DNA from: Anaerobutyricum hallii
GTDB lineage: Bacteria > Bacillota > Clostridia > Lachnospirales > Lachnospiraceae
Assembly (NCBI RefSeq): GCF_900209925.1
Contig: NZ_LT907978.1
Location: forward strand, 480,001 to 544,000
Direction: 5' to 3'
DNA length: 64,000 nt
Positions 1,874 to 45,783 of the stretch are shown one piece after another; position 1 is the stretch's first letter; each line of letters opens with the position of its first letter. The position numbers were made by a program, and so were the translations under genes. The notes beneath the pieces were generated by a model. It saw only the letters and a list, made by a program, of their open reading frames with translations, searched no databases and was not told the DNA's origin.

Positions 1874-1940
1874 TAAAAAAGGAGCCCACGCATGAGCTCC
1901 TCCGGCTACGGGCCCCTCGAGCATCCGTAGCACAACCACT
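1874..1940 (-). ncRNA. Short structured RNA upstream of abi (abiF RNA-like / candidate type III-like antitoxin)
   Basis: A leftward transcript starting near 1940 would hold two hairpins. The first pairs CTACGG (1925-1930) with CCGTAG (1906-1911). The second is a GC-rich stem (1881-1900) followed by a T run. The RNA would be about 65 nt and end 20 bp before the abi start codon. A promoter, small RNA, weak terminator and HEPN toxin in series is the layout of type III-like toxin-antitoxin loci. I recall an 'abiF RNA' motif described upstream of such genes, but identity to that motif is not tested here. Confidence 0.6.
1875..1900 (-). terminator. Terminator between the small RNA and abi
   Basis: Read leftward, GGAGCtCA pairs with TGgGCTCC around a TGCG loop, followed by at least six T. 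It lies only about 20 bp upstream of the abi start codon, so it must be partly read through for abi to be expressed from this promoter. Confidence 0.75.
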
Positions 1941-1990
1941 AAAAATACTATACAGGATCGATTTCTGAAAGTCAATCTGTTTTTTAGTGG
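1936..1990 (-). promoter_or_regulatory. Promoter of the small RNA/abi unit, flanked by an inverted repeat
   Basis: Read leftward, TTGACT (1970-1975) and TATAGT (1947-1952) are spaced by 17 bp. The pair is enclosed by the perfect 10-bp inverted repeat CCACTAAAAA (1936-1945) and TTTTTAGTGG (1981-1990), which could be an operator. Confidence 0.7.
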
Positions 1991-2036
1991 TAGTATTAGT
2001 TTATTCATATAAGCGTTAAATATTCGGAAACAAATA

Positions 2037-2111: not shown

Positions 2112-5087
2112 TTGCAGGTGACAGAGGTGAACATAGAAGCATACGATGTGGATTCGTTGAGAAAGATGGTCAGGATACTTGAATATGAGAACAGATTATT
2201 AAAAGATAAATTGAAGAAAGCAAGTATTCCATATGATGAGGTAAATCCTTTCGAAGAAAAAATAGAAAATGCAGAAGAGTATGACCCGGATCAGGGGGAA
2301 CGTATTGTGAATCCTTCGTTTATTACAGAAGAGATGGCAATTCGTTTCTTTTCGATGTTTTGGGGAAGAGAAGATGTATATGCCAGACGAGGTAAGAACG
2401 GTGGTTATTTTCCCCAATGTGATAATCGTTGGAATGACAGGCTTTGCCCTAAGCAACGTAAAGAGAAGGTATTTTGTGATGAGTGTGAAAATACCAAATG
2501 GACAAGGCTGGATGTTAAAAAAATAATTGCTCATTTGTTGGGATTTAAAGAGGATGGTTCAGATGTAATCGGTGTATATCCTCTATTGCCAAATGGTACA
2601 TGCAGATTTATTGTATTTGATTTTGATAACCATGAAAAAGGAGCGGAAGCTACCGATTTTGCCAATACGGATAATGAGTGGCATAAAGAAGTGGATGCTC
2701 TTAGAAAAATGTGTGAGCTTAATGGTATCAGACCTTTAGTTGAGAGATCCCGCTCCGGGAAAGGAGCACATGTATGGATTTTCTTTAAAAAGGCAATACC
2801 AGCGGCAACGGCAAGAAATTTCGGATTTCTCTTGTTGGATAAAGGTTCAACTTCCATTAATCTGAAATCTTTTCATTATTATGACAGAATGTATCCTTCA
2901 CAGGATGTGACAAGCAGTATAGGTAATTTGATTGCATTACCGTTACAGGGACAGGCACTTAAGAATGGAAATAGTGCTTTTGTAGATGAAAATTGGAATG
3001 CATATCCGGATCAATGGGATGTTCTTTTTAATAAAACGGAGAAGCTGGGCATAGAAGATATTGAACAATACATGGCAAAATGGCAGGGAGAATTAGCAGA
3101 AGCCAGAGGAATGCTTGCTAATATTGAAAAAAACGCCAGACCCAAACCATGGAAAAAGAAGTGCGAGTTTTCTAAAGCTGATGTTGTAGGCAAGCTGCAC
3201 ATGGTATTGGGTAATGGAGTTTATATTGATACTTTGAACCTTATGCCAAGAATACAAAATCAGATTCGTAGTCTGGCAGCATTTGATAATCCGGAATTTT
3301 ATAAAAATAAAAGGCTTGGATATTCAAATTACTACAATTTTAGTGCTGTGTATTTAGGAAAAGATATAGATGGGTACATACAGGTCCCGAGGGGACTGAG
3401 AGAAAAATTAATTGAAGAATGTGAAAAGGCAGGGATTTCTATTGATGTTTCTGATCAGAGAGAAACAGGACATCCAATCCGAGTATCTTTTAAGGGAGAT
3501 TTGCGAACACAGCAGGAACTGGCGGCAGAAAAATTACTGTCACATTCAAATGGGGTTCTGAGTGCAGCAACTGCATTTGGTAAGACGGTAGTATGTAGTT
3601 ATCTTATTGCGGAGCGAAAAGTAAATACGCTTATCCTGTTACAAAGTAAAGACTTACTGAATCAGTGGGTCGATGAATTGAATAAGTTTTTGGAAATAAA
3701 AGAAGAACCACCGGAATATGAAACAAAAACAGGAAGAAAGAAAAAGCGAGACAGTGTGATAGGAATTTTGCACGGCAGTAAAAATACGTTAACAGGTATC
3801 ATAGATGTTGCAATGGTTGGTTCTATGTATAGCAGGGGAAAGTTTAATGAACGGATTAGTTCTTATGGAATGGTAATCATGGATGAATGCCATCACGCAG
3901 CTTCCAATACATCCATGGAATTATTACAGAAAATTAATGCAAAGTATGTGTATGGTGTTTCAGCTACACCAAAACGTGGTGACAGCCTTGACAGGATCAT
4001 TTATATGTTGCTGGGTCCACTGAGACACAGGTTTACTGCGTTGGAGAGGGCGCAAGAGCAGGGAATCGGACATTATTTTGTCCCGAGATATACAAGAGTA
4101 GTCGATAATGCAGAAAGCAAGGATGATATCAATAAGGCATATAGTCTGATTAGTACCAGTCGGGTACGTAATGAGATGATTGTAAACGATGTGATAACTT
4201 GTGTTACAAGAAAACAGACCCCGGTAATTTTGACAAAGTTTAAGGAGCATGCAAAATTTTTATTTGATGCTTTGAAAGAGGAAGCAGATCATGTATTTCT
4301 TCTATATGGTGATAACTCCGATAAGGAAAATGCAGAAATACGAGTAAGGTTAAAGCAGGTTCCTGAAAATGAAACGCTTATTCTAGTTGCAACCGGTCAG
4401 AAGATAGGAGAAGGGTTTGACTTTCCAAGACTGGATGTATTAATGCTTGCAGCTCCTGTGTCTTTTGAGGGGCGTCTTGAACAGTATGTGGGAAGACTGA
4501 ATAGAGATCATCCCGGAAAAGAAGCTGTTTATGTGTATGATTATATTGATTCTCATGTCCGCTTCTTTGATAAGATGTATGCAAAAAGGTTAAGAACATA
4601 CAAAAAGACAGGATTTTCAATATGGACGGGAGAGTTGCAGTCTAAACAGATGATAAATGCAATATTCGATTCCGGAAATTACACTGAAAAGTTTGAGCAG
4701 GATATAGTGGAGGCAGAAAAAATGGTGGTAATTTCCAGCCCGGATATCAGACAGGACAAGATTGAGCGATTCTTATTCCTGATGAAGGGAAGACAGGAAG
4801 CAGGCGTAAAGGTAACTATCATCACAACAGATCCGGAAGAGATTGTTTATGGAAGTTCGGATGTATGCCATGAGTTAATCAGAACAATGCAGCTGGTAGG
4901 AATGAATGTAGTAACAAAAACAGAAGTAGAAGAACGGTTTGCTGTTATTGATGATGAATTAGTATGGCATGGTGGCATGAATCTTCTTGGAAAAGTAGAT
5001 GTTTGGGATAATTTAATGCGTATCAGGAATCATCAGGTTGCAGCGGAATTGTTGGAAATTGCACTGAGATATTTATCAGAAAAATAA
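2112..5087 (+). CDS. TOTE-type primase-helicase-PLD-like fusion
   Basis: This 991-aa multidomain protein begins with a short coiled coil (about residues 10-40). An archaeo-eukaryotic-type primase domain follows (about 65-330), with a Cys-rich insert (CDECENTKW), the acidic motif FDFDNH and the motif SGKGAHVW. A superfamily II helicase comes next: AATAFGKT near 481, DECHH near 589, SATPKR near 617 and QYVGRLNRD in the second lobe. The C-terminal ~130 residues resemble a phospholipase D nuclease fold, but the HxK part of the motif reads EERFAVIDD, so the catalytic His appears lost. Pfam recognises such primases as a TOTE conflict-system family (from memory). The start is uncertain: TTG 2112, GTG 2118 or GTG 2127. 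The recombinase gene begins 10 bp downstream. Confidence 0.85.
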   Translation: MQVTEVNIEAYDVDSLRKMVRILEYENRLLKDKLKKASIPYDEVNPFEEKIENAEEYDPDQGERIVNPSFITEEMAIRFFSMFWGREDVYARRGKNGGYFPQCDNRWNDRLCPKQRKEKVFCDECENTKWTRLDVKKIIAHLLGFKEDGSDVIGVYPLLPNGTCRFIVFDFDNHEKGAEATDFANTDNEWHKEVDALRKMCELNGIRPLVERSRSGKGAHVWIFFKKAIPAATARNFGFLLLDKGSTSINLKSFHYYDRMYPSQDVTSSIGNLIALPLQGQALKNGNSAFVDENWNAYPDQWDVLFNKTEKLGIEDIEQYMAKWQGELAEARGMLANIEKNARPKPWKKKCEFSKADVVGKLHMVLGNGVYIDTLNLMPRIQNQIRSLAAFDNPEFYKNKRLGYSNYYNFSAVYLGKDIDGYIQVPRGLREKLIEECEKAGISIDVSDQRETGHPIRVSFKGDLRTQQELAAEKLLSHSNGVLSAATAFGKTVVCSYLIAERKVNTLILLQSKDLLNQWVDELNKFLEIKEEPPEYETKTGRKKKRDSVIGILHGSKNTLTGIIDVAMVGSMYSRGKFNERISSYGMVIMDECHHAASNTSMELLQKINAKYVYGVSATPKRGDSLDRIIYMLLGPLRHRFTALERAQEQGIGHYFVPRYTRVVDNAESKDDINKAYSLISTSRVRNEMIVNDVITCVTRKQTPVILTKFKEHAKFLFDALKEEADHVFLLYGDNSDKENAEIRVRLKQVPENETLILVATGQKIGEGFDFPRLDVLMLAAPVSFEGRLEQYVGRLNRDHPGKEAVYVYDYIDSHVRFFDKMYAKRLRTYKKTGFSIWTGELQSKQMINAIFDSGNYTEKFEQDIVEAEKMVVISSPDIRQDKIERFLFLMKGRQEAGVKVTIITTDPEEIVYGSSDVCHELIRTMQLVGMNVVTKTEVEERFAVIDDELVWHGGMNLLGKVDVWDNLMRIRNHQVAAELLEIALRYLSEK

Positions 5088-5097
5088 GGAGATACTT

Positions 5098-7053
5098 ATG
5101 AAAAAAAAGACAAAATGCTATATCTATATCCGTGTCTCCACCACCATGCAGGTGGATGGTTACAGCCTGGATGCACAGAGAGATAAACTGAGAAAGTATG
5201 CTGAGTATCAGAATATGGAGATTGTACAGGAATTTGCAGATGAAGGAAAATCCGGTAAAAGCGTAGAAGGCAGACCGGAATTTCAGCGGATGTTGGACAA
5301 TATTGAAGATGGTAAGGACGATGTACAGTTTGTGCTTGTATTTAAGCTTTCCCGTTTTGGGCGTAATGCGGCAGATGTTTTGAATTCATTGCAGCGGATG
5401 CAGGATTTTGGAGTGAATCTGATCTGTGTGGAGGATGGCATTGACAGTTCCAAAGACAGTGGAAAGTTGATGATTTCTGTTTTGTCAGCGGTAGCAGAAA
5501 TTGAACGTGAAAATATTCTGGTGCAGACTATGGAAGGACGGAAGCAGAAGGCCAGAGAAGGAAAATGGAACGGTGGCTTTGCTCCCTATGGTTACAAACT
5601 GGTAAACGGAGAACTTCAGATTGCAGAGGACGAAGCAGAGGTAATTCGATTGATCTTTGATAAATTTATCCATACCAATATGGGAATGAGTGCGATTGCG
5701 TCATGGCTGAACCAACATGGATATAAAAAGAAAAAGAGACAGAATAATACGCTGGATGCTTTTGCAACTTCATTTATCAAAGGTGTTCTGGATAATCCGA
5801 TCTATTGTGGTAAACTGGCATTTGGTCGTAGAAAGAATGAAAAAGTCCCCGGAACAAGAAATGAATATCGGATTGTGAAGCAGGAAGAGTATATGCTGAA
5901 CGATGGCATCCATGAAGGTATCATTTCAGAAGAGGATTGGGAACTGGCACATCAGAAACGTCAGAAAACAGGAATATCCTATGAAAAGACACACAGTCTG
6001 GAACATGAACATATCTTATCCGGCATTTTGAAATGCCCTCTTTGTGGCAGCGGAATGTATGGGAATGTCAATCGAAAAAAGAGAAAAGACGGTACGGCAT
6101 ATAAGGACTATTTTTATTATGCCTGCAAGCATCGAAGGCTGGTGGATGGGCATAATTGCAGCTACCGCAAACAATGGAGTGAAGATAGGGTGAATGATGC
6201 GGTAGAGGAAGTAATCCGGAAACTTGTGCAGAATCCCAAATTTGAGGAGGCAATTATAAAGAAGATCGGTGCAAGGATTGACACGTCGGAAGTGGAAAAG
6301 GAAATTGAAGAACTGGAGAAACAGCACCGGCAGCTGACCGGAGCAAAGAACAGGCTCGGACAGCAGATGGACAGTCTGGATATTACAGATCGATTTTATG
6401 AGAAAAAATATCAGGATATGGAGACAAGATTGTACCGTCTCTATGATGAAATTGAGGGAGTGGAGAACAGTATCAGTGAGGTAAAGAACCGATTACTGAA
6501 CATCAAACAAAAGAAGATTTCGGAAGATAACGTCTACCAATTCTTACTGTATTTTGATAAACTGTATGATAAGTTCACCGACTTGGAGAAAAAAGAGTTT
6601 TTAAGCAGTTTTGTAGAGCAGGTGGACATTTATGAGCAGGAGCAGCCGGATGGCAGATTCCTAAAGCACATTAAGTTCCGTTTCCCAGTGTATTTTAATG
6701 GTGCGGAAACAGAAGAACTTAGTTGGGACAATGAAAGTACCGTCGAGACGGTTGTCTTGCTTTCCAAGGGTGAGGTCGACTCGAGAAAGATTCGGGTTGA
6801 GTTCTCTTTGGAAGATATGGATATGTCGGAGTTCCAAGATGGAGCTACCTATCCGCAGATCAAGGAGTATGTGTTGGAGCATACCGGATTAAAGGTGTCC
6901 AACCTCTATATCTCACAGATTAAGCGGAAATGTGGGATTGAGGTAGGAAAAAACTATAACCTGCCAAAATCCGAGGATTCCAGACAGCCCCAGTGTCCGC
7001 CGGAAAAAGAGAAAGCAATCCGAGAAGCGTTCAAATATTTTGGGATGATCTAA
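5098..7053 (+). CDS. Large serine recombinase 1
   Basis: This 651-aa site-specific recombinase has the expected order of parts. The N-terminal catalytic domain contains YIRVST with the nucleophilic serine near residue 13, then LSRFGRNAADVL and EIERENI. The recombinase DNA-binding domain follows, then a zinc ribbon (CPLCGSGMYG and downstream Cys), a long coiled coil (about 400-490) and a C-terminal domain with KVSNLYISQIKRKCGIEVG. It would integrate and excise a mobile element as a tetramer at att sites. It starts at ATG 5098 after AAGGAG. Its gene contains ACCGTC-GA-GACGGT at 6739-6752, a half-symmetric site shared with the second recombinase gene. It is co-transcribed with the TOTE-type gene upstream and the DUF6061 gene downstream. 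Confidence 0.95.
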   Translation: MKKKTKCYIYIRVSTTMQVDGYSLDAQRDKLRKYAEYQNMEIVQEFADEGKSGKSVEGRPEFQRMLDNIEDGKDDVQFVLVFKLSRFGRNAADVLNSLQRMQDFGVNLICVEDGIDSSKDSGKLMISVLSAVAEIERENILVQTMEGRKQKAREGKWNGGFAPYGYKLVNGELQIAEDEAEVIRLIFDKFIHTNMGMSAIASWLNQHGYKKKKRQNNTLDAFATSFIKGVLDNPIYCGKLAFGRRKNEKVPGTRNEYRIVKQEEYMLNDGIHEGIISEEDWELAHQKRQKTGISYEKTHSLEHEHILSGILKCPLCGSGMYGNVNRKKRKDGTAYKDYFYYACKHRRLVDGHNCSYRKQWSEDRVNDAVEEVIRKLVQNPKFEEAIIKKIGARIDTSEVEKEIEELEKQHRQLTGAKNRLGQQMDSLDITDRFYEKKYQDMETRLYRLYDEIEGVENSISEVKNRLLNIKQKKISEDNVYQFLLYFDKLYDKFTDLEKKEFLSSFVEQVDIYEQEQPDGRFLKHIKFRFPVYFNGAETEELSWDNESTVETVVLLSKGEVDSRKIRVEFSLEDMDMSEFQDGATYPQIKEYVLEHTGLKVSNLYISQIKRKCGIEVGKNYNLPKSEDSRQPQCPPEKEKAIREAFKYFGMI

Positions 7054-45690: not shown

Positions 45691-45711
45691 GGCAATAAAG
45701 AAATATAACTG

Positions 45712-45777
45712 TGGCAAATCAGTCGAAAGTCTGAGACGCAAAGCTAAAGGGCCTGTAAAATGGCAGCCAGTTGCAAC
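45712..45777 (+). promoter_or_regulatory. Class I cyclic di-GMP riboswitch (GEMM)
   Basis: The core GACGCAAAGCTA, GGGCCT and ATGGCAGCCAGTTGC matches the GEMM-I aptamer consensus in order and spacing. A P1 closing helix is formed by GCAA (45714-45717) and TTGC (45771-45774). It binds cyclic di-GMP and is followed by an intrinsic terminator 130 bp before a pilin-like gene and a run of c-di-GMP turnover genes. Whether ligand raises or lowers expression cannot be told by eye. Confidence 0.92.
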
Positions 45778-45783
45778 GTTTTG

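Follow-up and report, generated by a model that had tools for sequence, protein, structure and literature searches.

A covarying leader RNA and a candidate sporulation-type promoter at a putative AbiF-like RNA-antitoxin locus of Anaerobutyricum hallii

Does the short leader of an abi gene in Anaerobutyricum hallii encode an RNA that restrains the Abi protein, and under which promoters would such an RNA be made? The question arises from an earlier note on a window of 64,000 nucleotides (bases 480001-544000 of a complete 3.5-Mb genome), in which the locus was read as a candidate RNA-antitoxin system. That reading is now well supported by a covarying RNA, by an HEPN protein of the AbiD/F fold, and by copies of the RNA that outlive the toxin gene or lie away from it. 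We computed the RNA family and its covariation, the HEPN fold and motif, the copy patterns, the motif of a second promoter (P2) and a covarying inverted repeat. Very likely, the locus is an RNA-antitoxin/HEPN-RNase toxin module that belongs with AbiF-AbiFr, and it has a candidate sporulation-linked promoter; the toxicity, RNA binding, neutralization, trigger and sigma-E control that such a module would entail are predicted. The features of the core locus are as follows.

1975-1970, minus strand: -35 element (TTGACT) of the sigma-A promoter P1; TTGAC is kept in relatives
1952-1947, minus strand: -10 element (TATAGT) of P1, 17-bp spacer from the -35 element; kept in relatives
1940-1875, minus strand: antitoxin-like small RNA (model R1) of about 66 nt, 5′ AGUGGUUGUG..., by cmsearch (81.1 bits) and covariation
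1931-1905, minus strand: hairpin 1, with a 7-bp stem (GCUACGG/CCGUAGC) whose inner part is conserved, by covariation
1902-1875, minus strand: hairpin 2, with a UGCG loop and six T, an intrinsic terminator, by sequence, fold and covariation
1867-1863, minus strand: ribosome-binding site AGGAG, by sequence
1853-915, minus strand: abi, encoding a 312-aa AbiD/AbiF-type HEPN protein, by Abi_2 and PADLOC AbiD matches, RNxCAH motif and fold match

The promoter that had been described, TTGACT-17-TATAGT, is present at its place on the minus strand and conserved in relatives. The proposed succession of RNA, terminator and abi also holds on that strand: P1 is followed by the RNA, the terminator hairpin, AGGAG and the abi start codon at 1853. 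The predicted P1 start is A1940, which gives an RNA of 66 nt to the end of the T-run at 1875. Two hairpins plus a terminator had been expected; there are indeed two hairpins in all, but the second is itself the terminator. As in type III loci, a structured RNA, a terminator and a putative toxin gene are served by one promoter, and a second copy elsewhere in the genome (RNA at 2144557-2144625, abi at 2144651-2145577) has the same layout. A lone match to a P1-type promoter is at chance level in the window (15 found versus 16.8 in shuffles), and a lone terminator match is likewise not above chance at window level. For this reason, we turned to relatives of the Abi protein in GTDB contigs and in 299 genomes belonging to the same bacterial family, and aligned their leaders. 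A sigma-A promoter lies directly 5′ of the RNA in the aligned leaders, which share the succession AGUGR, hairpin, CCGG and terminator with a UGCG-type loop.

The earlier note had treated a lack of covariation among homologous leaders as grounds for abandoning its reading; the covariation proved to be strong. In an alignment of 35 distinct RNAs with consensus pairs from RNAalifold (alignment A1), R1 has 17 pairs, 15 of them with two-sided changes, and 96.8% of the cells are paired. The covariation score of this structure is 0.712; slid structures reach 0.13-0.22, and shuffles 0.31. Both hairpins contribute: two-sided changes occur in six of the seven pairs of hairpin 1, where 99.2% of cells are paired, and in nine of the ten pairs of hairpin 2. 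Compared with shuffled sequences, the fold of the RNA by itself (71-75 nt) is modestly stable (z of -2.2 to -2.6), and with the flanking inverted repeat the difference is clear (z of -4.35). R1 is a real covarying RNA family, and the covariation is the decisive evidence. It also rules out a chance fold or a chance hairpin. A leader peptide was rejected as well, given that neither start codon nor frame is conserved and that the changes in the stems are compensatory.

The suggestion that this RNA may correspond to the abiF RNA motif did not survive comparison with Rfam. A search of Rfam 15 found no family that matches R1, at the locus or in relatives, and the covariance model of the abiF motif (RF03085) matched neither the locus nor related R1-bearing loci. 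Its best score in the whole genome is 17.4 bits, at another place and against a gathering cut-off of 37 bits, whereas it does match C. difficile phage phiC2. The structures differ too. Although both are stem-loop RNAs in front of Abi_2 genes, in which an outer stem carries an inner mini-stem, RF03085 has a long unpaired stretch on its 3′ side while R1 has few unpaired bases, on its 5′ side, and the loops and the linker are different. Measured against Rfam 15 and the open literature searched, R1 is best read as a new RNA class. An earlier mention in the primary papers that introduced AbiF/Cas13 (Cell 2025) or the abiF motif (NAR 2017) is possible.

The protein encoded downstream is an AbiD/F HEPN protein by family match, motif and fold. 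It matches Pfam Abi_2 (PF07751) with 164 bits (E 6e-48; cut-off 25.6) and PADLOC AbiD with 228 bits. Its HEPN R-x4-H motif reads R208-N209-V-C-A-H213, in which R, N, C, A and H are invariant among 19 sequences down to 25% identity. A phmmer search with Abi found PbAbiF (8vz6) with an E-value of 8e-12. The AlphaFold2 model of Abi (pLDDT 92.8) resembles 8vz6, a PbAbiF dimer bound to its ncRNA, by Foldseek (E 6e-10, TM 0.75) and by VIA (Z 23.1, rmsd 2.6, 281 residues aligned). The next structural match after PbAbiF is Cas13d (VIA Z 8.7). On the strength of the HEPN motif and of its relatives, Abi is probably an RNA-cutting toxin that halts growth. In C. difficile, AbiFCd is toxic and the RNA RCd22 binds and thereby neutralizes it, both in cis and in trans; R202 and H207 of AbiFCd, homologous to R208 and H213, are needed for toxicity (PMC12373285). 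A protein scan of viral contigs found no relative of Abi. The combination of abi and R1 occurs on L061 and L062, two contigs from faecal metagenomes that were deposited as phage sequences.

We ran the covariance model R1 over family and class samples and over fetched loci, and sorted the copies by their Abi_2 neighbors. Among 122 distinct copies, 81 have abi just downstream (72 intact-like, nine as decayed pieces only), six lie just behind abi, and 35 have no detectable abi, although in two of these abi-less copies (L116 and L128, the latter at a contig end) an abi start too short to score is visible. R1 copies stand on both sides of abi at several loci (L039, L042/L049, L061 and L151). At L165, whose gene is the same as that of L026, the only copy lies behind abi and has its own promoter, TTGACT-17-TATATT. 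Hairpin 1 is intact in 98-100% of cells among the copies not followed by an intact abi. Toxin decay beside an intact RNA, and an RNA sited where no attenuation of abi is possible, fit a trans-acting antitoxin, and R1 is probably such an antitoxin rather than a cis attenuator only. The abi-less copies suggest stand-alone RNA antitoxins. As the earlier note had observed, the RNA is not repeated in tandem in the window: there is one unit, unlike in classical type III antitoxins, and two R1 copies in tandem occur only in the leader of L008.

The rival view that R1 is purely a cis attenuator of abi, acting by premature termination that a signal relieves, as in a riboswitch leader, and with no contact with the protein, has in its favor that the terminator sits between P1 and abi. 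In C. difficile, moreover, deletion of RCd22 raises abiF mRNA 17-fold, which makes attenuation one component of how that system works (PMC12373285). However, an attenuator would be useless to the 35 copies without detectable abi and to the six behind abi, some of which have a promoter of their own, and hairpin 1, which lies outside the terminator, is equally conserved in copies behind or without abi. We consider attenuation as the sole function improbable. Still further from our expectation, to the point of being very improbable, is that R1 guides the HEPN protein to phage RNA as a one-spacer forerunner of Cas13 crRNA instead of inhibiting it. AbiF has been proposed as the ancestor of Cas13 (PMC12737573), and the Abi model does match Cas13d, but no variable guide-like stretch lies between or around the hairpins: conservation extends over the linker and the single-stranded 5′ AGUGR.

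Only one close abi without an adjacent R1 was found (L212, 38% identity). It is preceded by a small ORF resembling an Arc/CopG-type protein (MKRKESAKKQVLLRLSPTLWGQIATWAEDDF...), a possible swap to a protein partner, and the same genome also holds the tandem-RNA locus L008. More distant Abi_2 clades in the same bacterial family are without R1. The leaders of most distant Abi_2 clades that were read hold other RNAs and terminators, one of them RF03085, and RNA class appears to follow protein clade. A further class of leader RNA, with the pattern ACAGAGUUGCC...GGGACC...terminator and no Rfam match, precedes distant Abi_2 genes at L203, L204, L206, L207 and L209. Yet other hairpin-terminator RNAs without an Rfam match stand in the Abi_2 leaders of L210 and L211, of L198 and L205, and of L201. 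In genus g208 (L069, L073, L180 and, in part, L142), an abi-less R1 lies directly behind an abi-less RNA of another Abi class (AACAGAGTTGCCAGGTGCGAATAACACTTGGGACC...), and this tandem of two antitoxin-like RNA classes stands before a zeta-toxin-like P-loop gene.

The inverted repeat around the promoter, merely mentioned in the earlier note, is conserved among relatives, covaries, and is linked to a candidate second promoter (P2) of sporulation type, as set out in the following features.

2021..2025, minus strand: -35-like element of P2, GAATA, with its ATA 15 nt before the -10-like element, by sequence and by a logo in 47 loci
2005-1997, minus strand: -10-like element of P2, AATAAACTA (CATAAACTA and CATATACTA in relatives), with one mismatch to CATAnAnT in the window
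1991-1981, minus strand: left arm of the repeat, ACCACTAAAAA, at the predicted start of the P2 transcript, by permutation tests
1945-1935, minus strand: right arm of the repeat, TTTTTAGTGGT, straddling the predicted P1 start at 1940, by permutation tests

The repeat encloses P1 as had been described, but its length is 11 bp, not 10. In a permutation test, the left region of each locus was scored with its own right arm against the right arms of other loci. Among 56 nonredundant loci with intact abi, the repeat covaries with a z of 9.07, and none of 5000 permutations scored as high; control windows of the same test gave z of 0.67 and 1.2. When the test was anchored on the P2 box, z rose to 12.1 (n = 47), with control windows at 2.5 and -1.0. 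The same test found no repeat in copies without intact abi (z of -0.5). Arm sequences vary among lineages while their complementarity is retained. A chance inverted repeat is ruled out by these permutation tests with their control windows.

The left arm is preceded by a conserved box, GCATAwAmTA. Counted from the RNA start, most of these boxes sit between -60 and -70 or around -80 to -100, and in 47 loci a G-n-A-T/A-A/T logo precedes the box by 16-17 nt. This arrangement matches the sigma-E promoters of C. difficile, which have the form ATA-N16-CATATATA (PMC3789822). The strict pattern ATA-N15-17-CATAnAnT was counted in 25 of 71 leaders, where the rest of the sequence at these loci predicts 0.08 and shuffling predicts 0.33; the window itself reads ATA-N15-AATAAACT, with one mismatch. 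The motif was spotted by eye before it was counted, which makes its exact form post hoc; the case for P2 is carried by the size of the motif excess and by its fixed place relative to the left arm. The genome encodes sigma-E (TIGR02835, 372.6 bits) and SpoIVA, and a CATATACT box, the same as the P2 box, lies upstream of spoIVA. Sigma-E scored above the cut-off in 27 of 40 and in 17 of 18 locus-bearing genomes. Among genomes at least 90% complete, 17 of 26 with sigma-E have CATAnAnT at their loci, compared with one of eight without sigma-E (Fisher p 0.012, uncorrected for kinship). Judged by these sequence patterns, P2 seems to be a sporulation-linked promoter of the sigma-E type that also drives the RNA.

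Two doubts about this part of the locus deserve weight. The P2 box could instead be a weak sigma-A promoter or an AT-rich upstream element, given that CATATAAT and CATATACT contain TATAAT/TATACT and that the box of the window is off-consensus. We find this the less likely view: no TTGACA stands at the right distance from the box, where G-n-A-T-A is found 16-17 nt upstream instead; the initial C of the box is conserved, a feature partly favored by the box finder but also present in plain pattern counts; the CATATACT box recurs at spoIVA; and the box is rarer in genomes without sigma-E. The other doubt concerns the repeat, which might be a DNA operator, bound at both start sites by a dimeric repressor, and not the stem of a longer RNA. 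Its arms are placed at the start sites of both promoters, and mismatches between the arms are G-U and A-C at similar frequency (19 versus 13), a ratio that fits an RNA stem and a DNA operator alike. Nevertheless, the repeat sequences are lineage-specific (CCACTAAA, CTACAG, CACTATAG, GAGCATA, AGACAAA and GTAACAATA) with no linked DNA-binding protein, the arm spacing ranges from about 45 to more than 80 bp, and the left arm begins where P2 would start, points that make an operator the less likely, though still a fair, possibility. Counted from the start of the P2 box, the left arm begins about 14 nt downstream, at the expected P2 transcription start, so that the 5′ end of a P2 transcript would pair with that of the P1 RNA.

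We propose the following mechanism. P1 would make the 66-nt RNA in excess, and most P1 transcripts would end at the terminator, leaving little abi mRNA. The free RNA, folded as hairpin 1 and the terminator hairpin, would bind the Abi dimer and block its RNase site (R208/H213), by analogy with PbAbiF and AbiFCd. If the RNA were lost, for example because a phage halts host transcription, the toxin would be released and the cell arrested. Once sigma-E takes over in the mother cell during sporulation, P2 may maintain expression of the RNA and, by read-through, of abi, and the 5′ end of the longer P2 transcript would fold back onto the antitoxin's own 5′ end. The role of this 5′ stem is a guess: it might fold the extra leader away and protect the 5′ end, or it might mask AGUGR and thereby weaken the antitoxin. 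More speculatively, and with a good deal less confidence than we place in the module itself, the sigma-E isoform may pair over AGUGR and alter the stability or the neutralizing activity of the antitoxin, toxin control may differ between growth and sporulation, and abi-less copies (including the two-class tandem of one genus) may persist against incoming AbiF toxins.

These readings would matter in two ways. Cas13 guide RNAs are proposed to derive from AbiF RNA antitoxins, and the sole Rfam family of such antitoxins met here is RF03085; R1 adds a second, strongly covarying AbiF-type RNA family whose protein has a relative of solved structure, which makes RNA-toxin co-evolution testable. In addition, toxin-based phage defence in Clostridia would become linked to their sporulation programme through a sporulation-type promoter and its covarying 5′ stem, a connection for which we found no report in the open literature searched.

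Other features of the window were recorded alongside. Divergent from abi, positions 2112-5087 encode a primase-helicase of the TOTE type whose end is PLD-like (AEP-TOTE E 4e-75), followed at 5098-7053 by a large serine recombinase, so that the genes of 2112-7053 look like defence cargo beside a mobile-element recombinase. A c-di-GMP-I riboswitch (55.6 bits) lies on the plus strand at 45703-45778.

Among known systems, the closest in layout is RCd22/AbiFCd of the C. difficile prophage phi027, a type III-like system (PMC12373285). Both loci combine a sigma-A promoter, an RNA (about 100-130 nt in C. difficile), a terminator and abi in one leader, and both encode an AbiD/F HEPN protein with an RNxCAH motif. 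RCd22, however, carries two RF03085 motifs, whereas R1 consists of one unrelated hairpin and the terminator hairpin. The AbiF proteins of C. difficile phages are 27-28% identical to the Abi of the window, and neither a sigma-E promoter nor a covarying repeat is described for RCd22/AbiFCd. PbAbiF-AbiFr of Prevotellaceae (8vz6; PMC12737573) shares with the locus the fold over 281 residues (Z 23.1), the HEPN motif and a single RNA per monomer without a repeat array. PbAbiF is only 21% identical to Abi, and AbiFr is seen bound in the structure whereas binding of R1 is predicted. ToxIN, TenpIN and CptIN likewise place an RNA antitoxin gene, a terminator and an RNase toxin gene in one transcription unit, but their toxin fold is unrelated to that of Abi, and their antitoxin consists of tandem repeats that the toxin processes, in contrast to the single unit of R1. 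Since it has no classical type III repeat array, we file the locus as an AbiF-type RNA-antitoxin system with a new RNA class.
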